From assembly GCA_009602725.1 (NCBI GenBank), contig WELB01000224.1:179682-202915 (forward strand): a stretch of 23,234 nucleotides of DNA. Direction: 5' to 3'. This document shows positions 223 to 17,000 of this stretch, one piece after another (position 1 is the first letter of the stretch; each line of letters opens with the position of its first letter). The position numbers and the translations under genes are program-made. Source of the DNA: Spirogloea muscicola. Its lineage: Eukaryota; Streptophyta; Zygnematophyceae; Spirogloeales; Spirogloeaceae. The notes below the pieces were generated by a model. The model made no database searches, had not been told where the DNA came from, and saw nothing but the letters and a program-made list of their open reading frames with translations.

Positions 223-320
223 CCCGCTTAGCAGAGGTTACTGAGTGATTCGTAGCTGCTTTGTTTCTCTGTGTGCTTGTTTATCTTAGCGCGTCCCCTG
301 GCCCCCTTCCCTTCTGTCGG

Positions 321-545
321 CCTGTTTGCAGCGTGCTCAGGCTAGTGCCTTGTCACCAGAAAGCTGGGCGAGCTCTAGTAGGTGGCAGAAGGGCTCCGTT
401 CCTGGCATCTAGTATTCATGCATCGAGTAGTGACCTTTATGTTTTGACCCGTGGTTATTGAGCGGGTCAATCTGCTGTAGGTTATGTAGATATTTAGATG
501 TGCTTGCCTTTGTACCTGGCCATTTGGCCGACATTTCTTTCTAAT
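321..545 (+). repeat. Dispersed repeat X, copy 1 (empty-site reference)
   Basis: This stretch matches 11176-11465 with only scattered differences, and part of it recurs at 698-860. It contains a short palindrome, TTGACCCG at 444-451 and CGGGTCAA at 463-470. It matters because it shows the uninterrupted sequence at two positions (GGTGGCAGAAGGGCTCC near 391 and GCCTTTGTACCTGGCC near 506) where the other copies carry hairpin-element insertions. No coding capacity is recognised, and its own class is unknown. Confidence 0.7.
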
Positions 546-556
546 ACACGATCTCT

Positions 557-677
557 CCTTCTCGTACTCTGTTCATTCTTTTTTGGGCTGGCTTTTCCAG
601 CCTCTATTCTCAATAGGCGAGCACTTCTCCTTGCTGGAAAAGCCAGCCCAAAAAAGAATGAACAGAGGACGAGAAGG
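557..677. repeat. Foldback of two opposed hairpin-element copies
   Basis: The left arm (557-601) and right arm (633-677) are near-perfect inverted complements of about 44 bases with roughly one mismatch, separated by a 31-base spacer that reads CTATTCTCAATAGGCGAGCA. The arms include the family lead-in (GTTCATTCTTTTTTGGGCTGG) and the small GGGCTGG/CCAGCC stem. It looks like a plus copy joined to a partial minus copy of the hairpin element. It would form a very stable cruciform or hairpin. Confidence 0.8.
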
Positions 678-739
678 GGGCCAGCGCTTCCCCTGGCTGT
701 AGGTCATGTAGATCTTTAGATGGGCTTGCCTTTGTACTT

Positions 740-811
740 CTTTTGGATTTTGTCCATTCTTTTTTGGCTGGCTTCTGCCAGCCCCTCTCTTCTATGGGCG
801 AGCTCATCTTC
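740..811 (+). mobile_element. Hairpin element, type B, with 9-bp target-site duplication
   Basis: A 72-bp insertion in repeat X. TTTGTACTT stands on both sides (731-739 and 812-820), while the uninterrupted copies near 506 and 11430 have the motif once. The insert carries the lead-in TTGTCCATTCTTTTTTGG, the stem GGCTGG...CCAGCC, and the type B 3' end CCTCTCTTCTATGGGCGAG...CATCTTC. There is no terminal inverted repeat and no coding sequence. Confidence 0.75.
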
Positions 812-893
812 TTTGTACTTGGCCATTTGGCCTACATTTGTTTCTTATACCCGAAATTATATTCTCGTCCTTCGCTTATTCTTTTTTGGGCTG

Positions 894-996
894 GCTTTTC
901 CAACCCCTATTCTCAATGGGCGAGCACTTTCTTCGCCAGGGGAAGCGCTAAGAAAAGAAGAAAGTGCTCGCCCATTGAGCATAGGGGCTGGAAAAG
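894..996. repeat. Foldback of type B hairpin elements
   Basis: The plus arm (about 894-934) and minus arm (about 957-996) are inverted copies of the type B 3' half, including TCAATGGGCGAGCAC. They are separated by a 22-base spacer containing GCCAGGGGAAGCGCTAAG, itself a fragment of the region usually found upstream of the element. This is a head-to-head arrangement similar to that at 557-677. Confidence 0.7.
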
Positions 997-1003
997 AGGA
1001 AGC

Positions 1004-1045
1004 GCGGCCAGATTGACTGGTGGCTGCGAAAGGCAGCCCAAAGCA
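1004..1045 (-). repeat. Hairpin element, type A, minus copy
   Basis: This is the reverse complement of the type A 3' half: GCGGCCAGATTGACTGGTGG followed by GGCTGC...GCAGCCC. One stem base pair differs from the consensus GGCTGG, but the opposite arm is changed to match (GGCTGC/GCAGCC). The change is therefore compensatory, hinting that the stem itself is maintained or was copied as RNA. Confidence 0.6.
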
Positions 1046-1106
1046 GAATTGAAAACACAACGCCCGGGCGAAGACCTCTGCCGCAAGACGGACAATAAAC
1101 CGCGGC

Positions 1107-1160
1107 CAGATTGACTGGTGGCTGGGAAAGGCCAGCCCTAAGGAATGGACAAGATCCGAA
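1107..1160 (-). repeat. Hairpin element, type A, minus copy
   Basis: A second minus type A copy about 60 bases beyond the first, with GCGGCCAGATTGACTGGTGG, GGCTGGGAAAGGCCAGCC and then AAGGAATGGACAAG, the complement of the CTTGTCCATTC lead-in. No flanking duplication was found. Confidence 0.6.
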
Positions 1161-1223
1161 GGAGCCGGAGTGCGAAGGACTAGGACTAAGACATCAGCCA
1201 GGGAACGCTCAGTGAAAAGAAAG

Positions 1224-1275
1224 AAAGTGCTCGCCCATTGAGAATAGGGGCTGGAAAAGCCAGCCCATGAAAAGT
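1224..1275 (-). repeat. Hairpin element, type B, minus copy
   Basis: It reads AAGTGCTCGCCCATTGAGAA, then GGGGCTGGAAAAGCCAGCCC, then a diverged complement of the lead-in. Immediately beyond it lies GGACGAGAAGGGGGCCAGGG, the complement of the sequence that commonly precedes type B copies. Confidence 0.65.
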
Positions 1276-1353
1276 CAACAAAGGACGAGAAGGGGGCCAG
1301 GGGAAGCGCTAAGAAAAACAAGCACACAAAGAAACAAAGCAGCTATGGATCAC

Positions 1354-1690
1354 TCAGTAACCTCTGCTAAGCAGCCTCAGGTCAGAGACGCTAGGCTCCT
1401 GGAAGTTTGTCCCCTGGCCAGAGCCAGAGGCAGCAGCGAGGGCTCTGCCGGCCCGCAGGTGCAGCGCGCGGGACATTGACCGCTGCAGCGAGACGGCCAA
1501 GCGCATCCGGTACACCTGCGCTAGCGACACGGCTGCAGGAAAGTCCACCGGCTCCCCATGGAAGCGACGGGCGATGGCGTGGCGGGCGAGCTGGGTGAGC
1601 AATTCGAGCCACCGAGCGCCCAACGCCCCATGCGTGTCAATCGCCAGCCGGGTGAACTCGTCTACCCGCGGATGGTTGGCGTACTTGAGC
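1354..1690 (-). mobile_element. LINE 3'-end copy with intact tail and stop
   Basis: The minus strand reads KELKYANHPRVDEF from about 1690, then a THGALGARWLELL block, an RMRLAVSLQRSMSRALHL block, and ends SVSDLRLLSRGY-stop at 1354. The K..KY...DEF..LA.D..GALG pattern is the recognisable end of a reverse transcriptase polyprotein (family knowledge). About 110 residues are open, and everything upstream is missing. It is one of the two best-preserved tails in the window and a good probe for finding the full-length parent. Confidence 0.65.
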
Positions 1691-1724
1691 TCTTTAAAGA
1701 AAGAGCCCCGTGAAAATGCTCAGT

Positions 1725-1945
1725 AACCTCTAGTCAGGAGATGCAAGTCTGAGTAGCTAGCCGGCGGAAAGACGTCGCCCGTGACGGAAGCCGGAGGCCG
1801 CCGCCCAAGCTCGGGCTGCGTGCAAGTGAACGGCGAAGGCAAGGGACCGCTGCATCGAGACGATGGCCAAACGCATTCGGAAGACTTGAGCGAGGGACCC
1901 GGCGACGTAGACGGAGGTCTACGGCAGACGGACGGTGGGCGCAAA
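1725..1945 (-). mobile_element. LINE 3'-end copy, second subfamily, minus
   Basis: The minus strand carries the diverged tail (CGAATGCGTTTGGCC, LQRSLAFAVHL-like coding, then a GFR.GDVFPPASYSDLHLLTRGY-type end). An in-frame reading is broken near the QR block. It abuts a plus-strand tail fragment starting at 1953, so two opposite copies are fused here. Confidence 0.55.
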
Positions 1946-1952
1946 GGAACGG

Positions 1953-2015
1953 AAATACTCGGACCACCCGGTGGGAGACGAGTTTATTCCAATGGCAGTT
2001 GACGTGCACGGAGCT
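1953..2015 (+). mobile_element. LINE tail fragment, plus strand
   Basis: The plus strand reads KYSDHPVGDEFIPMAVDVHG, matching the KAAKHSDHPPADEFVPLAVD stretch of the 7510-8229 copy but in the opposite orientation to the neighbouring minus copy. Only about 21 codons remain before the sequence switches to a retroelement 3'-tail at about 2018. Confidence 0.55.
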
Positions 2016-2111
2016 TTTGTGTGCTTGTTTGTCCTAGCGCTTCCCCTGGCCCCCTTCTCGTACTCTGTTCATTCTTTTTTGGGCTAGCTTTTCCAGCCCC
2101 TATCCTCCCCT

Positions 2112-2257
2112 GGCCGTCTCGATGCAGCGGTCCCTCGCCTTCGCGGTTCACTTGCGCGCAGGCCGAGCTTTGGCGGCGGCCTCCGGCTTCCGTCAGGGCG
2201 ACGTCTTTCCACCAGCTAGCTACTCGGATCTGCATCTCCTGTCTAGAGGTTACTGAG
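2112..2257 (+). mobile_element. LINE 3'-end copy, plus
   Basis: Plus-strand codons give SMQRSLAFAVHLRAGRALAA and end in YSDLHLLSRGY-stop near 2257. The copy is truncated at its 5' side, where it joins a hairpin element cut off at CCCCTATCCTCC. Confidence 0.6.
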
Positions 2258-2311
2258 CGTTCCCTGGCTGATGTCTTAGTCCTAGTCGTTCGCACTCAAG
2301 CTCCCTCAGAC

Positions 2312-2370
2312 CTTGTCCATTCTTTTGGGCTGGCCTTTCCCAGCCACCAGTCAATCTGGCCGCGCTTTCT
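2312..2370 (+). repeat. Hairpin element, type A, plus copy
   Basis: CTTGTCCATTCTTTTGGG is followed by GGCTGGCCTTTCCCAGCC and the type A 3' end, CACCAGTCAATCTGGCCGCG. It closely resembles the 10936-10993 copy, but no flanking duplication is evident. Confidence 0.7.
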
Positions 2371-2400
2371 CTATCCTCAATGGGCGAGCACTTTCCTTTT

Positions 2401-2625
2401 TCTGCTATTCACACACTTGCTTCACCGCCTTGCTCGGCGTGCAGCGGCCCGCCGCCTTGGGCAGCAGGGCGAGCAGCCCGGCTTCAATGTCGCCGGGTCC
2501 CTCGCTCAGGTCTTCCGAATGCGTTTGGGCATCTCGATGCAGCGGTCTCTTGCCTTCGCGGTTCACTTGCGCGCAGCCCGAGCTTTGGCGGCGGCCTCCG
2601 GTTTCCGTTAGGGCGACGTCTTTCC
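2401..2625 (+). mobile_element. LINE 3'-end copy, plus
   Basis: The open plus frame gives LLHRLARRAAARRLGQQGEQ, VAGSLAQVFRMRLGISMQRS and RALAAASGFR, then stops. It belongs to the same tail family as 8366-8612 (the LGQQGE/GSRA segment is shared). It ends abruptly at about 2625 and continues directly into another copy. Confidence 0.6.
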
Positions 2626-2631
2626 AAGTGT

Positions 2632-2795
2632 ATCGAATGCGCCTGGCCGTCTCGCTGCAGAGGTCTATGGCCCGGGCGTTGCACCTTCGTGCCGGCAGAG
2701 CCCTCGCTGCTGCTTCTGGCTCTGGCCAGGGGACCCACTTCAACGAGCCTAGCATCTCCGACCTGCGGCTGCTTAGCAGAGGTTGCTGAGTGATT
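2632..2795 (+). mobile_element. LINE 3'-end copy, plus
   Basis: The plus strand encodes VYRMRLAVSLQRSMARALHL and ends ISDLRLLSRGC-stop at about 2789. After the stop comes the usual 3' tail GTGATTCGTAGCTGCTTTG, then sequence leading to a type B hairpin. The order 'tail, stop, 3' tail, hairpin' recurs at 8800-8945. Confidence 0.6.
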
Positions 2796-2844
2796 CGTAG
2801 CTGCTTTGTTTCTGTTTCTTAGCGCGTCCCCTGGCCCCCTTCTC

Positions 2845-2915
2845 GTGTTCTGTTCATTCTTTTTCGGGCTGGTTTTTCCAGCCCCTATTCTCAATGGGCG
2901 AGCACTTGCTTCAAG
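2845..2915 (+). repeat. Hairpin element, type B, plus copy
   Basis: GTTCATTCTTTTTCGGGCTG, a stem closed by CCAGCC, then CCCTATTCTCAATGGGCGAG and CACTTGCTTC. It sits downstream of a LINE tail and is followed by another short LINE-tail remnant (about 2911-2965). Confidence 0.65.
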
Positions 2916-3049
2916 GAGCCTAGCGTCTCCGACCTGAGGCTGCTTAGCAGGGGTTACTGAGTGATCCGTAGCTGGTTTGTTTCTTTATGTTGCTGTTTTT
3001 CTGGCCGCGCTTCTTAATTTCTATGCGCTTCCCCTGGCCCCCTTCTCGT

Positions 3050-3116
3050 CCTTTGTTGATTCTTTTTTGGGCTGGCTTTTCCAGCCCCTATTCTCAATGG
3101 GCGAGCACTTTCTTCT
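3050..3116 (+). repeat. Hairpin element, type B, plus copy
   Basis: This is one of the cleanest type B copies: TTGTTGATTCTTTTTTGGGC, the stem, CTATTCTCAATGGGCGAGCA and the 3' end CTTTCTTC. A LINE-tail remnant (CCGGCTAGCTACTCAGACTT) follows directly from about 3118. Confidence 0.65.
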
Positions 3117-3221
3117 TTCCGCCGGCTAGCTACTCAGACTTGCATCTCCTGACTAGAAGTCACTAAGCGTTCCCTGGCTGATGTCTTAGTCCTAGTCCTT
3201 CGCACTTCGGCTCCTTCAGAC

Positions 3222-3282
3222 CTTGTCCATTCCTTTGGGCTGGCCTTTCCCAGCCACCAGTCAATCTGGCCGCGCTTTCTGC
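3222..3282 (+). repeat. Hairpin element, type A, plus copy
   Basis: CCTTGTCCATTCCTTTGGGC, GGCTGGCCTTTCCCAGCC, then CACCAGTCAATCTGGCCGCG. It is fused at its 3' end to a LINE-tail fragment reading GCCGCAAGACGGCCAGGCGC in the minus sense. Confidence 0.65.
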
Positions 3283-3589
3283 CGCAAGACGGCCAGGCGC
3301 ATACGAGGAGAGTAACCTTCTATGGCCGTTTGGACCTCGTCCGTCTTTTCTTCTTTCTAGGCTGGCTTTTTACACAGCCCCCCGTGACATAACCTCACTG
3401 GTTAGAAAGAGCTCTCCCGCAGAGAGAGAAGGCGCGCGGAGCGCATGGAAAAGCGGCTGCTGATATTAAAAATCGGCTGTAAACTGCCAGCCAGATGCAT
3501 ACAGGTGTTCATGACGGAGCCAAAGGCTAGGCAGACAGGGCGCCCTCAATACCCCCGTGTCAGCAGTAGGAAGTCAGATGAGCTGAGGG

Positions 3590-3933
3590 GAGGAAGAGCA
3601 ACCCCGCTGCGCAAACCAGAGGCTGCTGCAAGGGCGCGACCAGCCCGGCGATGCAAAGCAATCGCCTGGGACCGCTGTAGGGACATAGACAAGCGCATAC
3701 GGTAGCAGACACAAGACCCAAAGGCACCGAGCCACCGGGAAGGGCTGCACCCCGTTCCCGGCGACGCTGGTCAGCTTGAGAGGCCAGCAGCGAAACACGA
3801 GGACCACTGACCCCCGTAACACCCGTGGATGTCCATGGCCAGGGAGAAGGCGCGCGGTGCGCAGGGGGTAAAAGGTGTCACCCGCCGGGTGGTCCTTGTA
3901 CTTGTTCAACTTCGTCTGTTCGGCCACCTTCAC
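3590..3933 (-). mobile_element. Diverged LINE 3'-end copy, minus
   Basis: Near 3933 the minus strand reads KLNKYKDHPAGDTFYPL. Towards 3600 it reads YRMRLSMSLQRSQAIALHRR and RALAAASGLRSG. The middle is shifted and scrambled. It is an older or separate subfamily member: the tail architecture is clear, but residues differ from the 1354 and 7510 copies. Confidence 0.5.
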
Positions 3934-4014
3934 AGCATAGCCGGTCTCAGGGAAAGAAGGGAGGCCAGTTCAAGCCAATCCAGTGTTCAGGCAGAGTCTA
4001 GTGCAAATTAAACA

Positions 4015-4165
4015 AGGGTAGGGGCTGGGAAGGCCAGCCTAAAAAGAATTTGTTAGGACCCGGAGGCAGCAGGCAAGGCGCGTAGTGCATGGGCAAAACG
4101 AAGGAACGCTGCAGGGAGGTAGCAAGGCGCATCCTGTGCACCCGAGCAAGCGACCCGACCGCTTG
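4015..4165 (-). mobile_element. Hairpin plus decayed LINE tail, minus
   Basis: A GGGGCTGGGAAGGCCAGCCT hairpin (about 4020-4040) is followed by a minus-strand tail remnant reading VGSLARVHRMRLATSLQRSF. It marks the edge of the left repeat bed, and the transposon-derived signal ends by about 4165. Confidence 0.5.
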
Positions 4166-4691
4166 AAGCCAGCTGCTCGAAGTATGGGACATGTTGTAGA
4201 GTATCTCTTCAAAGCACAGATTTATGTCGTATATCAACAGATTACGAGCTGTGAACCAAGATAATCGAGGTAAAAGTGGAGCGGGCACTGATGGAGTAAA
4301 CAGCACTTCCATAACCGAACATTACTCTCCTCCATTGACTTTGTGGAAGTCACTATACGATCAATCACAAGCATGTGGGCGTGCATACTTACTGCAGATG
4401 AAGGTACTGTGAGATCTGTGCTTGCTAGGGAGATGTGTTGATGGAATAAACTGTGATGCCTGAACACTGAGATTTTAGTCTTGTTCAATGTAGCACCCTA
4501 GCAATTGTCATTGTTCTGTACAGCATGTCCATCTGGCCAACTTTGACCAGATATGATACAGACACTCCCACTTGTTACTACCCTACTCTCCCCCTAAAGC
4601 TGCAAAATGCACGTACTCTGAGCACCTCAGCACCTTGTACTCGCACCTCCATGTGCACATTCGGTATCTCTATAGACATCTATAAGGACTT
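4166..4691. other. Intergenic spacer, no feature recognised
   Basis: This AT-richer spacer lies between the repeat bed and the stop codon of the membrane-protein gene. I see no repeat-family match and no convincing coding. Since that gene runs leftwards, its 3' UTR and polyadenylation site should fall here, but I found no clear signal. Confidence 0.4.
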
Positions 4692-6521
4692 TCAAAGGAC
4701 TGGTATGTGGGAGCCATGGTGGTACCCGGCCAGGGCAATCGCGCTGTCATTTCGCCAGTAATGAGGAAGGAAGACGCCAACTTGATTGCACGCTGGCCAC
4801 GTCAACACTCCCAGGCAAAACCAAGAAAGGCTCAGCAGCATCATGCCTTCCATCACCCATCCACCTCTGCTATCTTCCTCGGCTTGGTCTATACTGCCAG
4901 CAAAATTTCCAGTCTCCAAAGATTGACTGCTCTTGGACGCCTCAAACTCATCCTGACCTTCAGTAACGGCATCCTGACGACCAGGAATGGTATCCAGCCC
5001 TGCCGCCCATGCTGTACCTGAAGAGGAGTTGAGTCGCATGCTTTGTGGAACCACTTCCAGGTCAATCTTGCTCTCTTTCCGGGCCTGCACCAAAACGCTC
5101 TCCTGACGCAGAAGCCAGTACACGTTGCCCAACACAACTAGAACAGCAAGGAGGCTGGCTACAAGTGGACCTGTGCTGCCCGTCTGCCAGACGACAATTG
5201 CAGCCATAGTGGCTGAGGTGCCCATACAGAGGACGTTGGACACAACACACGCCCGCTGGAATCCTATCTCCTTCTGATGAGTCTTCTGATGACCCTGCAC
5301 TCCTCCAACCAAAGGAGCCAGTGGCTTTGCCTCTTGCGTATGCTCCTGGTGTGTAGCAACTGGCTCAGGTGACAGAGGCGCTCTCTTGCTTTCCTTATTT
5401 CTGCTTTTCCCTACTTTGCCCTTCTTCCTCTTGACTTTCGGGGCTGGCGGGTCACGAGATTCAGGCAAATGTTCCTTGCTGGTATCTGGAGGAGCCTCTG
5501 CTGCATGGCTTGCCTCTCTGATACCTATACCTGCTTCCGTGTCAGTTCCACTCTGTACTCGCTGTGCATCAGAATCTCCAACTTGTACTACATTCTTTTC
5601 CTCCTGGACACTGACACTGTACTCCGCGCGCAATCTCTCAAATATCTTGGCTGCAGTTGCCAAAGCTTTCACATCGTCCTCAGCTCTGGCTGCGTCTTGC
5701 TTGGCAGACGTCGCCTCACCTTCCATTCTCTTGCGCAGTGCATCGACCTCTTTCAACTGAGTATGCCAAAGCACAACAAACACGATGAGTGTGCTTCAAA
5801 TCCTTTGAGCATTGCATAGAATGCTGATAAGTTGTCCACAAGAGTTCACAAAGAGAGATTATTGGTAAAGAGCTACATAAGTACAACAATAGAGAAAGAA
5901 TAATGCAAGTTGGCAAATCACTCGCAGCAGGCAAGAGCAACTGCAGCTGAACGGGAGCATGTCAAGGAAAGCACCTGGGCACATCTCTCCAATATGTGCT
6001 CCTTCAATCTGCTGCGGTCTTGCAAGGCCTTCTCAAGCTTCTGGAAGATCCTGCTCCTATCCCGCTGGGCCTTGGCAAGCTTTCCTCCCAAGTCCTCCAT
6101 GACCTCCGACATTTCCTGAAGCTCGCGTTCAAGTATCACAAGTTGCGCCCTCGTCTGCCAGGCAGCCAGTGAAGAGTCAGCTTAAAAATTGCACTGTGGG
6201 CTTACTGTGCCAGGACGGCCTTTCATCCACTCTAATTGCTACAAAGCTCGCCTATGCGGCAGCGTCCCGACATCTAGGTCCACAATGAGGTGGCCCCACT
6301 CAGGATGGAGCTGTGTGACACTTAAGGCACTAAGGATGGACCTTGGGCTCCCGGCGAGCAGCAGCAAACGTCCGCAAGGGCCACATGAGCACGCCAACAA
6401 CGGCGGCTGTCACGGTCTTGACCCCAAGGAAGTACCACTGCAGCATCCACCAGCTGGCCATCCTCCAGGGCCACGTGAGTCCGTCAAAGGCTCCGGCTAC
6501 CACCGACAAGATGGCACCCAT
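4692..6521 (-). CDS. Coiled-coil membrane protein of unknown function (3 exons)
   Basis: The model has exons at 6521-6342, 6154-5975 and 5756-4692, all joined in phase 0, for about 474 residues. Acceptors read GGCAG and CTCAG; donors read AAG/GTCC and CAG/GTGC. Residues 1-60 start MGAILSVVAGAFDGL and contain two hydrophobic, Trp-rich segments (LTWPWRMASWWMLQWYF and a Val/Ala-rich one). Residues about 62-180 are a charged, heptad-like coiled coil (ILERELQEMSEVM...; LKEVDALRKRMEGE...). About 227-245 is a Lys/Arg-rich patch (KVKRKKGKVGKSRNKESKR). About 290-335 holds two close transmembrane segments, and about 423-450 a final hydrophobic stretch (MMLLSLSWFCLGVLTW). I do not recognise the family. 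The arrangement suggests an endomembrane tether or organiser, which is inference. No neighbour gives a pathway clue. The start is the first Met of the hydrophobic exon. Confidence 0.72.
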
Positions 6522-6890
6522 GGCTGCTCAGACCGAGCCTGCTCCGAGCTCGCCTTCTGCTTTAGATTGCCGAAGAAGTGCGTGGAAGGTCCTCAGGCGC
6601 TGAAACGCGATACTCCCAGGTCATGCAATAGAAGCCCGTGCTCTGGCTGCGCACGCGCGCCCCTGGCGCGGCAATCCCGTCTTCGGTCGCCAACAGGCCG
6701 AAGGCGGTCCTCTTTTCGCTTCGGGGAGGGACGCCGCCGCCCGACTCCGCCTCTTGCCCGGCAGAAGCGCGGGGCTGCGATGGCGGCGCGCGCGGTGGCC
6801 GCGGCGCGGGCGCGGCGCCTCGCGAGCTGCGGAGGTGCCGCAGGCCTCGTGCGTCGACCAGCACTTCTGGGAGGGCTACTTGCGACGTAG
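6522..6890 (-). promoter_or_regulatory. CpG-rich probable promoter/5' UTR of the membrane-protein gene
   Basis: Directly upstream of the start codon the composition switches to strongly GC- and CpG-rich, peaking at about 6640-6850 with runs such as GCGGCGCGCGCGGTGGCC. Comparable GC-rich stretches precede or cover the 5' ends of the FANCD2 and GNAT genes in this window. The position fits a promoter and 5' UTR. No TATA box or specific site can be assigned. Open frames across it on the plus strand are antisense by-products of the composition. Confidence 0.4.
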
Positions 6891-7024
6891 TCTTGGGTCA
6901 CCGTCCGGATCGATGACGCTGAGAAAGTCGAAGTCTGTCTATCGGTGCCGTTCATTAGCAAACCCCTCGGCCGCCGGTGAACGCAATTTTAGCAGCTGAA
7001 TCGCCGTTTGCGCACGCTCGACAG

Positions 7025-7120
7025 AAGAAGGTGCTCGCCCATTGAGAAGAGGGGGCTGGCAAAGCCAACCCAAAAAGAATGGACAATGTTCAAAGCCAAA
7101 GAAAGAGGTGCTGAAACGGA
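7025..7120 (-). mobile_element. Hairpin element, type B, minus, with 8-bp direct repeats
   Basis: CTCGACAG occurs at 7017-7024 and 7121-7128, bracketing a minus type B copy. In the minus sense the 3' end reads GGCGAGCACCTTCTT and abuts the duplication exactly where the other copies end. The 5' side is longer (96 bp in total). The stem is GGCTGGCAAAGCCAACC with one mispair. Confidence 0.55.
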
Positions 7121-7228
7121 CTCGACAGCTCATGCGCGCCGCCCTCTACGAGGTGGGGCACCGGAGGGAAGGTCGCCGTCGACGGGACGGGCGCTTTCAT
7201 CAAAGATCATTAATTTTAAGGTAAAAGC

Positions 7229-7275
7229 AAGCGCGGCCACATCAACTGGTGGCTGGGAGAGGCCAGCCCAAGGAA
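7229..7275 (-). repeat. Hairpin element, type A, minus copy
   Basis: GCGCGGCCACATCAACTGGT, then GGCTGGGAGAGGCCAGCCC, then AAGGAACGGA. Both the CAGTCAAT-derived segment and the stem have diverged slightly. No clear flanking duplication. Confidence 0.6.
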
Positions 7276-7509
7276 CGGAAAGTGAGGATAGGACCAGTGA
7301 GAAGCGCACCGGAACGGCTGGATGATCAGGGATGCGGGGACCCGGCCGCCTCGGCTTCCCTGCAGAAGAAGTGGCACTCCCAATGGGGGCAAGGGCTGCG
7401 AAAAGCCAGCCCAAAAAGAATTCACAAAGGTTCAGAGGGGCCTAAGAGCGGTGAGCAGCTACAAAGGGGCCTGAGGATGCAATGGTAAAACAGGGGGAGG
7501 ATGGATCAC

Positions 7510-8229
7510 TCAATAAGTACGAGTGAGGAGCCTCAGATCCGACAGACTAGCTGCCGGGAAGCTATCACCCTGACGAAAGCCAGAGCCCGCAGCGAGAGCA
7601 CGGCCAGCTCGCAGATGCAGAGCGTGGGCCATGGACCGCTGCAGGGATACAGAGAGGCGCATCCGATATACCTGAGCCCACGAGCCCGCGGCGTTGAAGT
7701 CGGCTGGCTCGCCGCGTCTGCGGGACACAGCCCGCCGCGCAAGCCTAGCCAATAGGTCAAGCCACTGGGACCCAAGAGCCCCGTGCACGTCCACCGCCAA
7801 GGGGACGAACTCGTCGGCAGGTGGGTGATCGGAGTGCTTGGCCGCCTTGCAGCGAGCGGCCTTCGAGGCAGCGTGGCCGGCCCGCGAGGCAGAGAGCCCC
7901 AGGTTGGAGCTGCAGAGGAGCCAGGGAGTGGGGGGGGCGCCTGCCATGCACGCCACGTGGTGACCTCGCTGGCTCGCCCCTACTGTCTGTCGGCCAACGG
8001 GGGTGCTCACGGTGCGCCCTTTCGCCGCTGTTGTTGCGGCAAGCACTTGACGCATGGCAGGGCCTTTCCAGTGGGTCGGTGAGAAGCTCTTCCTCGTCCA
8101 TTCCTCTGTGCTGGCCTTTCCCAGCCACCAGTCAATCTGGCCGCGCTTCCTATTCGAAGAAGGTGCCTTTCGTCGTTTTTGGCTTGAAGAGGCGCCCTTC
8201 CGGCCTTTCCGGACATCGGACCTTGTCAT
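7510..8229 (-). mobile_element. Longest LINE 3'-end copy (RT polyprotein C-terminus)
   Basis: A 239-codon open frame on the minus strand. The N-terminal third is low-complexity, Lys/Arg/Ser-rich sequence partly overlapping a type A hairpin element (8097-8150), so it is probably not native coding. From about residue 110 it reads SASRAGHAASKAARCKAAKH, SDHPPADEFVPLAVDVHGAL, ARLARRAVSRRRGEPADFNA, YRMRLSVSLQRSMAHALHLR and ends SLSDLRLLTRTY-stop. This is the best guide in the window to the parent element's C-terminus. The A...RK.AKH..P..FVPL..D..GALG pattern is typical of non-LTR reverse transcriptase tails. No RT catalytic FADD motif or endonuclease is present, so the copy cannot move by itself. 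Confidence 0.65.
8097..8150 (+). repeat. Hairpin element, type A, plus copy
   Basis: CGTCCATTCCTCTGTGCTGG, a stem closed by CCCAGCC, then ACCAGTCAATCTGGCCGCGC. It is inserted at the 5' edge of the minus LINE copy. CTTCCT occurs on both sides, but that motif overlaps the element's own 3' end, so I do not count it as a duplication. Confidence 0.6.
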
Positions 8230-8365
8230 ACTTTCCGGGCTGGCTGTTCATCACAGCCCCTCGCCCCCTCTAAAGCGCTTGTCTTTCATAGGAGAGCCAC
8301 TTTCTTCCAGACCTTGTTGATTCCATTGTCCGAAGCTTCTGGCTGGCTTTTCGCAAATGGCTTGA

Positions 8366-8612
8366 CCTGCTTCACCGCCTTGAGCGGCGAGCAGCGGCCC
8401 GCCGCCTCGGGCAGCAGGGCGAGCCTGATTTCAAATGTCGCCGGGTCCCTAGCTCACGTCTTCCGGATGCGCTTGGCCATCTCTTTGCAGCGGTCCCTTA
8501 CCTTCGTGGTTCATTTGCGTGCAGGCCGCGCTTTGTACCGTATGCGCCTGGCCGTCTCGCTGCAGAGGTCTATGGCCCGCGCGCTGCACCTTCATGCCGG
8601 CAGAGCCCTCAT
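8366..8612 (+). mobile_element. LINE 3'-end copies fused in tandem, plus
   Basis: The plus frame reads VFRMRLAISLQRSLTFVVHL and RAGRAL, and then directly repeats the same block from a different subfamily (YRMRLAVSLQRSMARALHLH, AGRAL). Two tails are thus joined inside the homologous segment. The fusion could come from unequal recombination or template switching during reverse transcription. Confidence 0.6.
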
Positions 8613-8731
8613 GTGTGCTTGTTTGTGTGCTTGTTTTTCTTAGCGCTTCCCCTGGCCCCCTTCTCGTCCTTTGTTGATTCTTTTGTGGGCTGGCTTTTCC
8701 AGCCCCTATTCTCAACGGGCGAGCACTTTCC
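8611..8731 (+). mobile_element. 3'-tail plus type B hairpin inserted in a LINE tail
   Basis: The LINE coding tail breaks after CCGGCAGAGCCCTC (about 8610) and resumes at GCTGCTGCCTCTGGCTCTGG (about 8733), where uninterrupted copies run straight through. The intervening 120 bases are a TGTGTGCTTGTTTTTCTTAG tail, CCCCTGGCCCCCTTCTCGTC and a type B hairpin ending GAGCACTTTC. No clear duplication is visible at the edges. Confidence 0.55.
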
Positions 8732-8815
8732 CCGCTGCTGCCTCTGGCTCTGGCCAGGGGACCCCACTTCCAGCAGCCTAGCCTCTTGATCTGCGGCTGC
8801 TTAGCAGGGGTTACT
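8732..8815 (+). mobile_element. LINE 3'-end remnant, plus
   Basis: This is the continuation of the interrupted tail: GCTGCTGCCTCTGGCTCTGG through CTGCGGCTGCTTAGCAGGGG and TTACTGA. Compared with 2700-2790 it has small indels, so the frame is lost. Confidence 0.5.
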
Positions 8816-8819
8816 GAGT

Positions 8820-8945
8820 GATTCGTAGCTGCTTTGTTTCTTTGTGTGCTTGTTTTTCTTAGCGCTTCCCCTGGCCCCCTTCTCGTACTCTATTCATTCT
8901 TTTTTTGGGCTGGCTTTTCCAGCCCTATCCTCAATGGGCGAGCAC
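8820..8945 (+). repeat. 3'-tail plus type B hairpin, plus copy
   Basis: GATTCGTAGCTGCTTTGTTT, then TTCTTAGCGCTTCCCCTGGC, the lead-in ATTCATTCTTTTTTTGGGCT, the stem, and CTCAATGGGCGAGCACTT. At 8944 it runs into LINE coding sequence (TGGCGGCGGCCTCCGG) through the shared letters GAGC..TTTGG, which suggests a microhomology junction. Confidence 0.6.
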
Positions 8946-9035
8946 TTTGGCGGCGGCCTCCGGCATTCCGTCAGGGCGACGTCTTTCCGCCTGCGAGCTA
9001 TTCCGATTTGCATCTTCTGACTAGAAGGTTACTGA
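8945..9035 (+). mobile_element. LINE 3'-end remnant, plus
   Basis: GGCGGCGGCCTCCGGCATTC, CGTCAGGGCGACGTC and CATCTTCTGACTAGAAGGTT match the last 30 codons of the second tail subfamily (SYSDLHLLTR...). Small indels disrupt the frame. Confidence 0.5.
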
Positions 9036-9087
9036 GCGTCCCCTTGTTGCTGTCTTAGTCCTTAGCACCCCGACTCCTTCAAACCTT

Positions 9088-9140
9088 GTCCAGTCCTTTG
9101 GGCTGGCCCCTCCCAGCCACTAGTTCATGTGGCCGCGCTT
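9088..9140 (+). repeat. Hairpin element, type A, diverged
   Basis: CTTGTCCAGTCCTTTGGGCT, a GGCTGGCCCCTCCCAGCC stem and CACTAGTTCATGTGGCCGCG. The stem pairs are kept while the loop and 3' half have mutated. Confidence 0.55.
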
Positions 9141-9199
9141 TGTTTTCACAGCCCTCGCCCCCTTTTTCGAATGCCATCCTTCTTCACTAAATGTTACCA

Positions 9200-9356
9200 A
9201 GGGGAGCAGGCTTATCTCATACAACGCTGCAGCATTGCATCGCGCACCGGTCCCGCTTTGGCTGCGGCCTCTGGCTATAGACAGCGGACGCCTTACCCTG
9301 GGACTCGCTACCCGACTGGTTTCTCTGACCAGCTGCTGCTCAACAGGGGACATTGA
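9200..9356 (+). mobile_element. Old, diverged LINE 3'-end copy, plus
   Basis: The plus frame reads CSIASRTGPALAAASGYRQR and ends FSDQLLLNRGH-stop at 9356. This aligns position by position with RAGRALAAASG.RQGDSFPA...LSDLRLLTRGY. It is far more diverged than the neighbouring copies, showing that the family has been active over a long time. Confidence 0.5.
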
Positions 9357-10058
9357 GCACCAGTGGCGACTTGGGTTGCAGTATGCTTTAGTGCAAAGCG
9401 GGCCCCTTCGAACTTGGCTCATTTTTTTCCTGCGCTGGTCACACAACCATCGCCCTCTACTGGAAGGGTCTTTCTTCTTTTATATGCTGGCCTCTCAAAG
9501 TAGTAGGGAATTGCCAAGTTACCATCCTTCGTGATGATTGCTTAGTTGAGTGTATTAGCACTTCCTGGCCCCTACAAAGCTTGTCCACTGGTTTCGGGCT
9601 CGCTTTTCACAGCCCTCGCCCCCTTTAGGTGAGCTCTTGTCTTTAGGTGAGCTCTTGAGAGAAGAAGCTCTTCCAGAGGGTGCAGTGGCTGGGGAGAAGA
9701 AGCAGCTCTTTCGAGGTATGCGAGGCTGTGAAAAGCAAGCCCACGTAGCTGAATATGGCCAGTTCGGAAAGATAGACACGGTCCAAACGGGCCAGGAAGC
9801 ACAAAACACGTAATAAGAAGAAGACTCTTCCAGTCGAGGGGCAAATAGAGGTCTCTACCACCATGAGCACTGAGCAGCTCGGCTCGGCCTCCCTTCATTT
9901 TATGTACACCCCGCTTTCTATCGCTGACAAATGGGGCAATGGCCATGAGAGGCCAGCCCAAAGGAAGTAGACACGAGGAGAACAAGACAGGACAAAGCCC
10001 TCAGCAAAGCTCCGCTACACAGATCCACTCGGTAGTCGAGTTGGCAACTACAAGTCAG
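9357..10058. repeat. Decayed hairpin-rich spacer
   Basis: No gene is seen. The spacer contains several degenerate hairpins (GGGCTCGCTTTTCACAGCCC near 9596; an opposed GGCTGTGAAAAGCAAGCCC near 9725; GGCCATGAGAGGCCAGCCC near 9940). It also has a short tandem duplication of CTTTAGGTGAGCTCTTG at about 9624-9656. The first two hairpins face each other across about 110 bases as a degenerate foldback. Confidence 0.45.
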
Positions 10059-10142
10059 AGAGGAGCAGGGAGGAGCAGGGCAGGCAGGAGGGCAGGGAGG
10101 AGGGCAGGGAGGAGGGAGCAGGGAGCAAATGCAGCAGGGAGG
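10059..10142. repeat. Purine-rich GGGAGGAGCA minisatellite
   Basis: An imperfect tandem array of GGAGGAGCAGG / GCAGGGAGGAGG units, almost purely purine on the plus strand. Open frames across it are low-complexity Arg/Gly or Leu/Pro/Ala readings and are not credited as genes. Confidence 0.75.
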
Positions 10143-10562
10143 AGCCGCACCGCCGAAGAGGAGGTGGCGGACGTGGAAGGCCAGCTCAGAGAAGATGCTC
10201 TTTCAAGGGGACCGATGGTTGTGGGAGGCCAACTCGAAATGAAGAAGCCGAAGGGGCCATGGCTGTCCATAAGCCAGCCCACGATGAAGTGAACAAGGTT
10301 TAACGGAATTGGAAACCATAGAGACCAATGAAGGTAAGCACTAGCTTGTGCCTGAACAGACCAGGGCTTGTTGTGGCCATCCCTTCAGTCATGCGCACCA
10401 AGCGCCTTCCCCCTTCTCTCGTGCAATGGAGTAAAAGTCCGAATGGGGGCCGGGGAGCGCAATTCACGAGGTCGGAGATGGTCAAGGGGGAAATTTTAGC
10501 ACGTACTGCATGCGGCTCAGCAGAACAGTTGTTACAACAGATGGCCCAATCGTAACCCCTTT

Positions 10563-10920
10563 TCAGAACAGCCTCAAGGGGGGCTCTAGCGGTGGCAGGG
10601 CCCTTCCTGTGTGTGCGTCGCTATTGAATTTGCAGCATGCCGTTAGCATCAGTCTTAACGGGGCCCGGCTACCCCACATGCCCTGGCCGGCTTGATTGGC
10701 GACGCCGGCTACCGTGCGGTCGTGGAAGTCAACAGTATCATGCCTATCACCACGGACGCCCAGGGACGTCATCATCGCCGCACACTTGACATTGTGGGCG
10801 TGCAACCTGGTGGGGGACCACGGGCCCTGGTCGACGTTGTTGCGGAGGCATATGAAGGCCCAGCATCGACACATCGCTGGGCACGCATTGGGCGGTGCAG
10901 AACAAAGAAAACTTCGGCAC
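10563..10920. mobile_element. Possible retroelement polyprotein remnant, strand unsure
   Basis: Both strands are open here. The plus strand reads RRTLDIVGVQPGGGPRALVD followed by VVAEAYEGPA. The minus strand reads SLGVRGDRHDTVDFHDRTVA. Each resembles the 'xxLDVxVxxP' segment that lies before the tail in LINE polyproteins. Composition is GC-rich like the LINE tails. A type A hairpin element lies just beyond, at 10936. I cannot decide the strand or exclude an unrelated gene fragment. Confidence 0.25.
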
Positions 10921-10935
10921 TACTCCGATTAGCCC

Positions 10936-10993
10936 ATGTCCATTCTTTTGGGCTGGCCTTTCCCAGCCACCAGTCAATCTGGCCGCGCTTTCT
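10936..10993 (+). mobile_element. Hairpin element, type A, with 10-bp target-site duplication
   Basis: CGATTAGCCC stands at 10926-10935 and again at 10994-11003, exactly bracketing a 58-bp type A element: ATGTCCATTCTTTTG, the stem GGCTGGCCTTTCCCAGCC, and CACCAGTCAATCTGGCCGCG with CTTTCT at its 3' end. There is no terminal inverted repeat. It is the clearest solitary insertion in the window, in sequence otherwise free of repeats. Confidence 0.8.
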
Positions 10994-11175
10994 CGATTAG
11001 CCCCAATGCGATCAGCTCCAGCCAGCGCCAATCGACATTTTTGGCTGTCTGGGTCCTCGTTTCCACGCTCTCCTTCCAAACATTGCCAATCTAGGCTACA
11101 CTCGACGTGCAGATGTGTTTCCGGCTGAGATGGGCTTGCCAGCTGCATATCTGTCGCTCTTGCGACCTGTTTCAG

Positions 11176-11465
11176 CCTGTTTGCAGCGTGCTCAAAGCTA
11201 GTGCCTTGCACCAGAAAGCTGGGCGAGCTGTAGTTGGTGGCAGAAGTAGTTGTCCATTCTTTTTTGGCTGGCTTCTGCCAGCCCCTCTCTTCTATGGGCG
11301 AGCTCATCTTCGGCAGAAGGGCTCCGTTTCTGGCATCTGGTATTCATGCATCGATTAGTGACCTTTATGTTTTGACCCGTGGTTATTGAGCGGGTCAATC
11401 TGCTGTAGGTTATGTAGATCTTTAGATGTCCTTGCCTTTGTACTTGGCACATTTGTTTCTCATAC
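11176..11465 (+). repeat. Dispersed repeat X, copy 2 (carries an insertion)
   Basis: This copy is nearly identical to 321-545, including the palindrome TTGACCCG/CGGGTCAA at 11372-11398, but is interrupted at 11247-11311 by a hairpin element. The two copies lie about 10.8 kb apart in the same orientation and flank the membrane-protein gene and both repeat beds. Confidence 0.7.
11247..11311 (+). mobile_element. Hairpin element, type B, with 8-bp target-site duplication
   Basis: GGCAGAAG at 11239-11246 is repeated at 11312-11319. Copy 1 of repeat X has GGTGGCAGAAGGGCTCC uninterrupted. The 65-bp insert starts TAGTTGTCCATTCTTTTTTG and ends CTCATCTTC. Its 3' 55 bases are identical to the 740-811 copy, but its 5' end differs, as expected for elements copied from the 3' end. 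Confidence 0.8.
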
Positions 11466-11663: not shown

Positions 11664-14002
11664 ATGGCCGCCCCACGCTCTGAGGCGAAGCATTCGGGGT
11701 GAAGCCGGAGCACGAAGCATTGCAGGGCATGACCAGTCTCGAGCCATCACAGGTGGCGCCTCAACCTCCTGGATCTCCGCGGTGACTTCCACAAAGGCGA
11801 TCCAGGGACCTCTGGGTGGTCCCAGATGCGGAGCATGCCTTCATGCGACCGTCAGTGAGGCGCGGAAGTGTATGGCATGATGATGAGGACATCTTCCACG
11901 CTCAGCTAGCTGCAGCAGGCTTGCATAGGGGAGAAGATGGTGGCTTTCTGGCGAAGGACCCTTTGGCGGTCGGGCGTCAATTGGAGCAGCAACTGCAAGA
12001 TGAGGTCTTGAGAGAGGCATTTGTCCGCTGCCTGTATACTCAGTTGGCAGAAGAATCGTCACTTCGCAGGTGCCAACCTGCCGCCTCGCCTGCAAAGGAT
12101 GACTAGCTAACAGTGGAAACACTACTGAACCTTGTGATCTTTCGAGGTAGTATGCACAGGTTGGCCTGAGACAAGACGGAACTTTTTGTGCACTGACAGG
12201 CACACTGACAGGAAATTAGCAGCACATGAGCTTGCTGGAACCTTATTAGTAACTCCCAACGAATTTGAAGCTGGTAATAATCTGCATACTGGAAGCCATC
12301 GCACACAAGCTGTCTCATCCATAACGACATTGCAACAGGTTGCTGGCTCCTATTACAGGTGTCTTCTCCTTGGTCGCTGAACGGACCACTGATGAAAGCA
12401 CTGCAGCAATTCTCTTGCGCGTCCCTCCATCCAAGTTGAGGTTTCAAATGCACTTCTGGAGAAACTCCCTGAATATCTTGAAGAAACTAATGATGACTCT
12501 CTGCAACACGCTACCTCTCGAACGAATCTGCCTGTGCTCATTGTTAGCCAGTTCTTATGGCTGGAACACCTGAACAACAGCTCAACGGTCACGCAAAAGC
12601 TACTTGAGATACTACCCCTCTGTCATTTGACGCTCAAGGTATGCCTTTGCTTTGCCTTCATTTGTGCCATGTATTGATTAGAACATCCGGCAGAAGAAGT
12701 CACTTAATGTGTACTGATCATTTGTGCAGCTTTGCACTATGGTATCTGTACTACTTATGTCCTAATGATTGGATTCTCAGAACAGAGACTGCCTCATCAC
12801 TTGTGTTTCAATTTTCCAGCAGTCATACTCCTCATGAATGGGTGCATCTCGAAGCAGCACAATTTTACACGTCAACATGGTCAAAGGGTTGCACCTTCCA
12901 CAAGCAGTATGCCACCTGCAGGGTGATCAAACTCTTGGCTATGTGATGCTTTGCAGAAGGAGATAATTGCGGTCTTGCCAGACATTACTGCTGATGCAGA
13001 TCAGACCATAGTCCTCCTGACACTTGAGCAGATGCTTCACGACGACCTAGATTTTACAGTCAGTGTAATTGAGGCCTTCTCAAAGTTTGACCTGAGTGAG
13101 GAGCTCCTTGAGCAGGTGAACACGTCTACCCTCCCTTCTCAAGGAATTCATGTTTCTCAAAGCAAGTCAAGCACTGAAGCCCAGTGGAGACATGAAAGCA
13201 TCCATTCCGTTGTCAACTAGTCTTCAATCTAATCTCACTGTTTTTCACCAATAAGCCCTGTCCCTTTCAGGCTGTTGCAGTGGCCATGACTTCCTTGAGA
13301 TCAGCAAATATAGGATCCGTTCCAAAGGTTACTCAATTCCTACTGCATTGTGCAAGCTCTTGCGAACATCAGCATCTTGTGCACCAATTGAGGACAATCC
13401 TTGGCAGACTGTTTCAGAGCTGGCCTCACAAGTCATGTAAAAGTGGCAAACAGAAAGAAGCAGCAGTCAGCAGGGACGTGGAACACTATGTGATACAGAT
13501 TCTCGGCAGTCAAATGAACCTGCATCAGGTACTGTCTTGCAGCCTCTAGACATCCTTCAAACTTTCAGCCATGAAATCCTTCACAACTGCAATGGAAGTC
13601 CAACAGTGTCAGACCACAAGTACGCATTGACTTTGGGTCCCTGGTATGATGGCTTAGGTCTTATGCAGCCTCTTTTTGAAGGAAATAAAGGAGATAGGGA
13701 ACAGTGAGAAGCTCACACCGCTGGACATTCTGCTGCTGATTATGGTTGTGCATGCAAGCCCTGGCAAGCGGACAACTCTGGAAAGTGTTATGAAGAATAT
13801 GGTCTTAACAGGACAACTGACTGAGGAGCTCCTAGCTCAAAGTCTTGAGGGCAATGGAGCTGTTTTATCATCGTACTTGCGGGCTATCCTCGATGTATGC
13901 GAGATGTTTTTGGGAGCCAAAGAGGATACCTTTGTTGTCTTTGGTTGTGCAGCTTACTTCACATGCTACATTACATATACTGGAACATATGAAAGGCAGG
14001 AG
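11664..14002 (+). other. FANCD2: FANCD2 N-terminal solenoid exons
   Basis: The start at 11664 (MAAPRSEAKHSG) is chosen because exon 1 (phase 2 donor GGG/GTGAAG) joins the ATCCAG acceptor at 11805 in frame. An alternative is the in-frame Met at 11843. DIFHAQLAAAGL followed by LEQQLQDEVLREAF matches the first conserved helices. 12339-12638 runs LLAPITGV...ILLRVP then SIQVEVSNALLEKLPEYL, but needs a one-base correction at about 12424. 12957-13115 (EIIAVLPDITADADQ...) and 13271-13528 (SVPKVTQFLLHC...) are clean. 13543-13619 (PLDILQTFSHEILHN) and 13669-14002 (FLKEIKEIGNSEKL, RTTLESVMKNMV) fit the family pattern, but the short joins between them (14 and 49 nt) are unusual for this gene, whose other introns are about 89-336 nt. 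Confidence 0.75.
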
Positions 14003-17000
14003 GTACTTTCACCATGCCTTTTCATTTAGAAATGATCTGCAAGAGAAGGACTGGCACAGAACCAAGCCAGTTACTATGCTGCAATGTATGCTGCAACGCA
14101 TATATTTGGGTGAAGAAGTATCTTCACCCCAAGTGCCATTCTGCTGCTTCTCTTCTAAGGTACTGGGATCTCTTATCACTCACACGGGTTCCACTTCACA
14201 AGGCCAAGTTGAAGGTGCCTTGGATGTCCTGTCAATGCTGGCAAGGAAGTGCCCTCAGGAACTCCTCCCTTTTGCTCCATTTATTAATGGCATCTTAGAC
14301 TACCTGGATAGCTACAACTGCAAACAACTCGAGAAGGTAAATCCTGAAGATGTCTATTAGCAGTAGACAAGTACATTTTAAGCTCTTAACAAATACATAA
14401 TAAGCTCTAGCATGTCAAATCAACCTTACACCAGTATCTGCAAGCAATAGATCAACTTCATCTTTTTGCAAGCATAAAGCTAGCCACCCCAAACCTTCTC
14501 CATCCCTTAGCTCATCCCGCAGTTTCACATTCTTGACAGCTTGACAGAGCAGCTCATGACAATTAAAGCTGTTGATGTCAGGTGTATGACCTTTTCTGCA
14601 CCCTAGCTGTAGCTGCCAAGAAGTATAGCAGCAACAAGAGTGGGGGTTCAGTCATGGACGATGTGATGATGTTGATCAGCAAGCAGAGTGTTAGTGTCAA
14701 CTGCAAATATCAGAAATTGAGCATACTAGGCACACTTGGACTGCTCTGTTATCGTGGAGCAGAGGTTTCTTGCTTTGATGTGGAGGAGACAGGAAATAGA
14801 GGAGTCAGTTCCAAGCTTATACCCTCTTGTGCGCTTGCATTGTAAGCATTTACAGGGATGCAAGTACTAGTGCAGTCTCCGAGCTTGCAAATGTATCGGC
14901 CCACTGCATGACACCAAGTGCGTGCATTGGTCCTAGACTAGGCTATGTAGCAAGACTTGGCGATAGTCAATTGTGGAGCGGATTACGATGTAGATGTCCT
15001 GATTGTGATGGTGATTTTGTGTGGGCTCAGGTATCTGAGCCACGATCTGAGACTACGCAGCTCCTGCAGATCCTCGCAGCATCACTCTCTCTTTCTCCGC
15101 CAGTGCAGATCTTCCTCTTCGATGGGCTTGCAAGGGTTGTGGCTGGTGGCGAATGTGATGCAGGCCTGATCAGATGGCAAGTACCAGATGATCAATAGAC
15201 TGATGCAGTAAACAGACAATCATCTGTGCTATGCTTAGATGTCAATTTGCTGGTGACCTTAAGTGAATGCTGCAGCTCATTACAGCTCCCAGTTGTCCAG
15301 GATCCAGAAGAATATGTTGGACTTTGAGGGAGCCTTTCTTGGTAATATGGATGACTATCAGCTTGCGGAAGTGGTCAATGAGGCATGCAACATTGCAGGT
15401 TATACTGCCTCCTCTTGTGCACCTTGCAATGTGCTCATGAAGCATTCACCGTCCTCCAGCAGTTAATACTGACTCGCTAAGCCGAGAGCAGATAGCTGAC
15501 TACTTCTTCTACGACATCTGTGGCTGCAGGGGAACATGTAATGAACTTGGATCACGAAGATACATCGGTCACAGTCAGGATCTTGAGTCTCCTTAGAGAG
15601 GGCCAGACCCACGTTCTTGACACCATGCCTGCTCAAATCCACCTCCTCACAGTGCTTGAAGCTGCAACCAACAAAGGATCCCTTGAAAATGTGGACGCCC
15701 TCCTTGGCTGCCCACTACAACTTCCCCATAGTCAAGTAAGTTCTTCAATTTCAGGAGGATCAGGGCAGCTCGAAAGGCTTGACTTCGGCCTGCCCGTGAC
15801 AGCAATTGATAGTGTGCCTATCATTGATGGCTCGCTTACCCAGGCCTCAGCCTAACAGAAAACAACATGCTCTCCTCTTGCCCAGCTGCTGACTGGAAAG
15901 GGGTGGAGGTCTTTGGGGGAGAAAGAGCAGGAGATTATCTGTCTAGCCTTGTACTATGCTGTAAATTGGTTAAGAGAAGTTATAAACGCATTTGCGTCAC
16001 AGCAAAAGTCCTCTTCTGGAAGAAGCAGTCAAGCTGTTGACACAGATATTTCTGCCAAGCTGTTGAAGCGCATCAGAAATCTTGTGTAAATTCCCATACT
16101 CCACGACTCAGCTTACAATTCATCTTTCTTAGCTGGTATAGCATTTATCTACGCAAGTTCCTGTGACACGACTGCACAAGAGAAAAACCTTGAACTGATC
16201 CATGTCTACTGCTGTCAGGTCCATGGAGCATCTGCTCACGAAGTGCATCGAACATAGCTCTCCCATCGTCCTTCCGCAACTCAATTCCACTGTCAGCAAC
16301 TCTGATGGAGAAATTATCAACTCCAACCTGAATAAGAGGCAAGTCCCTGAGTGTAGGCCTAGGCAGACCAAAGCCAGAAAAAGAAACACTCTAAACGAAA
16401 GTGATGGTCATAGCACCAGCAGTGCTGTCAAGAGCAATGAAAGCCAGAGACAAAGTAGCAGACACCAGGCCAGTGGCACAAATCGAATCAGAGGTGGAGA
16501 GGCGATTCAAAGCCAAGGAGTGACAGTGGAGAACACTGCTGAAAGTCCGAAGGAGGCTGCAAGAATTGAAAGTGTGGAAGAGTCTGCGGCACAAGAGCAT
16601 GGTGATCTGGCTTCTAGTTTGTGCGACATCGAAACAGAAGGCCAGATTGACCTACAGAGCGAGAAGTGGCGGCCTCTGAGCCTTTCGGCTATATCGTTGT
16701 TATCAGCTGGAAATGTAAGATTGTCCATTTCTTTAGTTTCTGCTTTGTCAGGATTTGAGCGACTGTTAACATGCAGTCGGTTGATGACATCCATTGATGA
16801 CATCAATAGGGCTTTATGTGCCGTATTTTGAGTGCTGGAAGCTGTAATGAGCGATCTTTTGTGCATGTCTTTGGCAGAAAAAGGCGTCCCCTGTATACTG
16901 TTGTCCTGACCCCCACGCTCAAGTGAGCTGCTTGCCTACCCACAGTATCATACTTGTCTCCTTTAAGGGTGCTGCTTGCTCAACTGTGTCCAGTCCAAGT

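Follow-up and report, generated by a model that had tools for sequence, protein, structure and literature searches.

Hairpin-bearing micro-insertions in Spirogloea muscicola as probable 5'-truncated 3' ends of several related LINE families

A 23,234-nt stretch of the Spirogloea muscicola genome (assembly GCA_009602725.1, contig WELB01000224.1, positions 179,682 to 202,915 of the forward strand; hereafter the window) carries many short units built around a common hairpin. In all likelihood, these units are the 3' ends of several related families of long interspersed nuclear elements (LINEs), 5'-truncated by target-primed copying that stopped early. The kind of element is already known; what is notable is the extreme truncation, the hairpin common to several families and the same-strand mosaic arrays that the tails form. 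An earlier note on this DNA, made from the letters alone, had described the units as a tiny structured RNA moving by retroposition. Retroposition from a structured 3' end is borne out: 3' ends are constant, 5' ends form a ladder, and both target-site duplications and empty sites are present. The idea of an independent mini-element is not supported, as copies with tails of each of the types A, B and C reach into related LINE open reading frames (ORFs).

Three tail types served as references, A (window 740-811), B (10935-10993) and C (3054-3115). With these, a BLAST search of the window (E <= 0.01) found 25 separate matches on both strands, within 570-4049 and 7024-11311, which confirms the earlier count of more than 20 copies; one of the 25 places is a marginal 20-base match. 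In the 153-Mb assembly (471 contigs, the window included), exact 3' ends number 134 for A, 822 for B and 1759 for C, that is 2,715 for the three types together, and the reversed-pattern control gave 0 for each. Two other patterns, the B hairpin core and the A head, occur 929 and 293 times, respectively. For each exact-pattern search, loci were chosen among the matches listed (100 per search), and those taken from the assembly, numbered with an L hereafter, comprise 60 A ends, 40 B ends, 20 C ends, 20 A heads and nine longer stretches. Some crowded B and C places were passed over in the sampling.

The tail references were aligned with 149 copies, all distinct and all having an exact 3' end (61 of type A and 44 each of types B and C). 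The retained length goes from 21-25 nt up to the entire reference, the lower limit being set in part by the search patterns of 17-21 bases. As the exact 3' end was itself a search criterion, its constancy was judged by the sharp switch to differing flanks beyond it; on that basis, the constant 3' and variable 5' ends proposed for the window hold genome-wide. In the 3'-anchored samples, 51/121 copies retain at most 60 nt (A 26/60, B 19/41, C 6/20), with the proviso that the A sample leans towards short copies because already-listed places of at least 64 bases were left out. The size range of 58-96 bp given earlier proved too narrow, since copies span from 21-25 bp to about 4.1 kb. The flanks of the listed copies differ from each other, and the insertions are not limited to one target sequence. 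As for the starting points, a preferred TGTCC start, which would have hinted at RNA processing or a ribozyme, was seen in the head-anchored loci L041-L060; starts are spread in the 3'-anchored copies, and the candidate was dropped because the head search pattern itself demands TGTCC.

The four direct repeats described for the window are exact and in place. They are TTTGTACTT at 731-739/812-820 around a 5'-truncated A-type tail (740-811, plus strand), CTCGACAG at 7017-7024/7121-7128 around an A5-type tail with a longer 5' part (7024-7120, minus strand), CGATTAGCCC at 10926-10935/10994-11003 around a B-type tail (10936-10993, plus strand) and GGCAGAAG at 11239-11246/11312-11319 around an A-type tail (11247-11311, plus strand), all four tails having been located by BLAST. 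Both flanks of each insertion, denoted 740, 7025, 10935 and 11250 in this test, were joined and searched in the window and the fetched loci. Paralogous empty sites were found for three of the four insertions, where two had been put forward: for 740 at window 474-551, L073 (97%), L089, L015 and L067, all gapless; for 10935 at L056 (91.7%) and L067 (87.2%), also gapless; and for 11250 at window 334-441 (2 gaps) and L067 (1 gap). For insertion 7025, its own two flanks alone were matched in the window and fetched loci, with no empty site. Among the 101 truncated copies having both flanks, 25 show correctly placed direct repeats of at least 7 bp, an excess over chance given that mispaired flanks yielded 3.5%, and that 300 permutations averaged 3.9 and never exceeded 9. 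Introners were considered for the 8-bp duplications; by eye, the tails here end in CTTC or CTTTC, not in AG.

The same evidence bears on another possible origin of the units, namely a cut-and-paste miniature inverted-repeat transposable element (MITE) or some other DNA element. Small size and duplications of 8-10 bp would suit such an element, but the units form the 3' terminus of an element that encodes a reverse transcriptase, and their 5' end is not fixed. The 5' end thus varies where a MITE would have two fixed ends, terminal inverted repeats not having been searched separately in the genome copies. We regard this origin as having next to no chance of being correct.

The identity of the parent elements comes from the longer copies. 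Upstream of the tail, longer C copies have a 3' untranslated region (UTR) of about 130 bp preceded by a stop codon and an ORF. L065 has an open frame of 1337 codons, after which come the UTR and then the C hairpin; the frame contains the Pfam reverse-transcriptase domain RVT_1 (E 8.3e-16), and its best matches among PDB chains are R2 retrotransposon proteins (E ~1e-6). C tails are attached to LINE ORFs in L062, L063 and L065-L067, and related ORF ends precede A tails in L072 and L073 and a B tail in L070. As A, B and C are each attached to related ORFs, they are the tails of different but related LINE families. The earlier statement that the units have no coding sequence is therefore right for the short copies, whereas the longer ones run into a reverse-transcriptase ORF. 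In these longer copies, the units occupy a fixed position in a larger transposon, which is what the earlier note had named as speaking against its own reading. L065 and L066 align gaplessly over 4,111 bp at 99.85% identity, and hence the family has been active recently. The L065 copy is inserted within another C tail; the BLAST pieces overlap at that place by 12 bp, an overlap which by eye is a duplication with one mismatch.

The window itself holds remnants of such ORFs. At 1354-1719 (minus strand), the C-terminal end of a LINE ORF with a KELKY motif shares 86.5% identity with the L065 ORF over the matched part, and a C-type tail found by BLAST lies 3' of it at 1221-1280 (minus strand). The protein encoded by this ORF end gave 150 scored matches from 18,755 first-look candidates, 19 of the 150 lying in open frames of at least 1,142 aa. 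Another C-terminal ORF end, at 7513-7890 (minus strand), is 65% identical to that of L065.

These LINEs are probably R2-like, with an endonuclease of the restriction-like (RLE) type, judging from their sequences. KELKY or KERKY motifs are present in the C-terminal regions of L062, L064 and L072, in addition to the KELKY of the window ORF end, and related forms occur elsewhere in the window. Excerpts of PMC5678591 describe KX2KY as a catalytic motif of RLE LINEs, along with a knuckle of the form CX2-3CX7-8HX4C. Zinc-finger-like motifs are visible by eye near the N-terminus of the L065 ORF, and Pfam shows no APE endonuclease domain in this ORF at E <= 1. The endonuclease assignment is based on the motif and on the R2-like reverse transcriptase, because the C-terminal part has no match in the PDB.

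Most of the stem GGGCTGG...CCAGCC is common to twelve tails from the window and the loci. Compared with shuffled sequences, the predicted folds have z scores of -4.09 for A, -2.81 for A5, -1.53 for B, -1.47 for C and -0.86 for a degenerate tail at 9583; folding of the tails as RNA is plausible. A possible outer helix, TGTCCAT/ATGGGCG, has 88.1% of its cells paired over six tails, as against 28.6-52.4% for slid versions. According to excerpts of PMC4176376 and PMC5135761, the stem-loop at the end of the RNA is bound by the LINE protein in zebrafish LINEs. By analogy, the hairpin is probably a handle for target-primed reverse transcription. The element RNA would finish with a tail, some 60 nt long, that bears the GGGCTGG/CCAGCCC stem-loop and on which families A, A5 and C might have the outer helix. 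The LINE protein would grip this tail, nick the target and copy the RNA from its 3' end. Copying would often halt very early, leaving insertions of scarcely more than the tail within short target-site duplications.

A number of observations weigh against interpreting the units as truncated ends of R2-like LINEs whose tails are recognized as RNA. The B and C tails fold barely better than their shuffled versions. The outer helix shows one-sided changes alone and no two-sided change over the six tails, and all 500 shuffles equal or beat it on all five measures; hence, we do not retain it as proof of a conserved RNA structure. As for the duplications, the repeats are shorter than 7 bp in 76/101 truncated copies. 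Furthermore, 8 of the 25 duplications (one each in L025, L094 and L116, two each in L087 and L110, and that of a 40-nt C copy in L061) consist of LINE sequence and might stem from adjacent copies, which leaves 17/101 copies with duplications of at least 7 bp that do not, a count set against a control that had no matching trim. The A5 tail at window 7024-7120 has not been traced to an ORF. In the protein of L065, the spacing of a C, C, H, C cluster is by eye unlike that of the published zinc knuckle, the C-terminal 308 aa taken alone match no PDB chain at E <= 10, and the N-terminal C2H2 models have E values of 0.096-0.39, below the Pfam cut-offs.

Some of these points would suit an independent, tiny retroposed RNA, i.e., a hairpin element resembling short interspersed nuclear elements (SINEs) that borrows the LINE machinery. 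Many copies are indeed tail-only, the A5 type lacks a known ORF, and in 8/44 B copies the start lies at 45-48 nt, which might mark a discrete 5' end but about which we make no claim because T-rich flanks blur its edge. However, the 5' ends form a ladder instead of a single start, and all of A, B and C run on into LINE ORFs. A scan for a head of the RNA polymerase III type, covering the window only, gave no tRNA and no Rfam match. An independent element of this kind thus seems very improbable, and we favour truncated LINE ends for the units. As regards A5, the tails at L097, L002 and window 7024-7120 share an upstream part, CAGCACCTCTTTCTTTGGCTTTGAACATTG, which could not be linked to an ORF; A5 may represent either a LINE family of its own or a SINE.

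Among algal LINEs, Zepp of Chlorella and Coccomyxa is abundant, with copies nested in one another. Zepp is L1-like and has an APE endonuclease, and so differs from the elements described here, as Pfam shows no APE-type domain in the L065 ORF. R2 proper inserts at one site in 28S rRNA genes, whereas the flanks of the copies listed here vary, no separate 28S search having been made. UnaL2 and ZfL2, which belong to the L2 clade, are LINEs of the stringent type and resemble the present elements in that their RNA terminates in a stem-loop common to several elements; the elements found here differ in looking R2-like. For UnaL2 and ZfL2, sharing of the 3' stem-loop between elements and experimental proof of its recognition by the protein are reported in excerpts of PMC5135761 and PMC4176376, whereas we infer recognition here. 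In protein organization, the present elements resemble RLE-encoding LINEs (CRE, R2, R4, NeSL and HERO): one long ORF, a reverse transcriptase nearest to R2 proteins, KX2KY at the level of the motif, and possible N-terminal zinc-finger-like motifs by eye. According to an excerpt of PMC4640811, CRE, R2, R4 and NeSL are mostly target-specific and HERO is often non-specific; the insertions described here are not confined to one target. No description of this tail was noticed among the open-licence papers that our searches listed.

The tails are also frequently close to one another. Less than 60 bp from a truncated copy, another tail is present in 92/200 flank segments (75 same strand, 17 opposite). 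At 60-120 bp this is the case for 71/192 segments (45 same strand, 26 opposite) and at 120-180 bp for 54/158 (30 and 24), with continuations of the same copy excluded in the three distance bins (8, 6 and 7, respectively). Tails that abut flush form 25 runs among 232 units, in a scan that left out eight loci (L061-L066, L154 and L155), and 21 of these runs are not plain splits of one tail. Four runs (L003, L008, L009 and L010) consist of an older tail that a younger one has interrupted, and part of L087 and L110 may be explained in the same way. In most of the remaining runs, a tail with an intact 3' end is immediately followed by a truncated one, frequently from a different family. Where the 5' flank of a truncated copy extends into a same-strand tail, 16/29 junctions are at 0-10 nt from the 3' end of that tail and 13/29 inside it. 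Runs of three or four tails were observed in L020, L025, L100 and L110, the last with, e.g., C60, A52, C27 and B33.

For these arrays, and for them only, two mechanisms come to mind. New copies might prefer the T/C-rich tails of older ones as targets, in the same orientation, an explanation to which we give slightly better than even chances. The four plain tail-in-tail insertions and the 13/29 same-strand junctions inside a tail are in line with such self-targeting, as is the base found right after the 3' end, which is T in 70% of A copies (n=60), 86% of B copies (n=44) and 93% of C copies (n=44). This T excess may, however, reflect the TTC-like tail of the element itself, a target preference or both, and the 16/29 junctions at the tail end also fit the other mechanism. 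That mechanism is template jumping, known from R2, by which the reverse transcriptase would hop between LINE RNAs so that one insertion holds several tails. The 21 of 25 flush runs that are not plain splits, the junctions at tail ends and the preponderance of same-strand neighbours within 60 bp all speak for it. On the other hand, the split tails of L003, L008, L009 and L010, and possibly those of L087 and L110, speak against it, and a separate insertion would fit L116, whose second tail is bracketed by CTTTCTTC on both sides. Tails are also still common at 120-180 bp, though the excess is smaller there. On balance, template jumping is possible but somewhat doubtful. Both mechanisms predict runs in which a complete end stands before a truncated tail, and the data do not separate them.

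It is tempting to speculate, quite tentatively, that non-site-specific RLE-type LINEs of the green lineage generate tail-only micro-insertions by the thousands, and that an enzyme which aims at its own T/C-rich tails or jumps between RNAs of different LINE families builds them into mosaic head-to-tail arrays, in which the tails are some 24-95 nt long. If so, the shared hairpin would let one protein mobilize the tails of several families. More generally, a repeat with the look of a self-standing, structured mobile RNA may turn out to be the smallest kind of product that LINEs leave. In this assembly, the exact tail ends make up a natural set for studying the RNA handle, the truncation points and the target choice of an R2-like LINE.

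The other BLAST matches in the window are distributed as follows. A C-type tail with its hairpin (570-628, plus strand) is inverted relative to a C-type tail retaining half of the hairpin (633-664, minus strand), and another C-type tail lies at 878-934 (plus strand). On the minus strand, two tails are placed head to tail and flush at 957-1052 (B at 997-1052, then C at 957-996, as also given by the run scan), with a B-type tail at 1097-1151. Plus-strand tails follow at 2066-2107 (C-type, 3' side incomplete), at 2313-2395 (B at 2313-2370, then a flush short C at 2371-2395 in the run scan), at 2848-2912 and 3052-3115 (both C-type) and at 3224-3280 (B-type), and the hairpin portion of a degenerate tail is found at 4019-4049 (minus strand). 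Further along, two degenerate tails are on the minus strand, one of B type at 7226-7271 and one of the A/C kind at 7365-7430. They are followed on the plus strand by a B-type tail at 8096-8151, C-type tails at 8670-8730 and 8893-8948 and a diverged B-type tail at 9087-9141. The marginal 20-base match (E 0.003) is at 9947-9966 on the minus strand.

Ends of a further LINE family, denoted D, are present at window 317-560, 690-870 and 11172-11455. An older LINE end of this kind at 10683-11455 (plus strand), 3' UTR included, hosts the insertions at 10936-10993 and 11247-11311; its ORF remnant (10683-11150) shares 30% identity with residues 1146-1286 of the L065 ORF. The 3' UTR of D has a small palindrome, GGCCATTTGGCC, in place of the GGGCTGG hairpin.

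As for other features, a 367-codon open frame at window 4692-5795 (minus strand) has no Pfam family above the cut-off. The region at 13658-14029 (plus strand) and its surroundings match the Fanconi anaemia protein FancD2 (Pfam E 1.1e-11), whose exons seem to take up a large part of the window's right half. Outside the window, L154 speaks for a genome of the green lineage, as it contains an LHCII fragment matching plant-type chlorophyll a/b chains.

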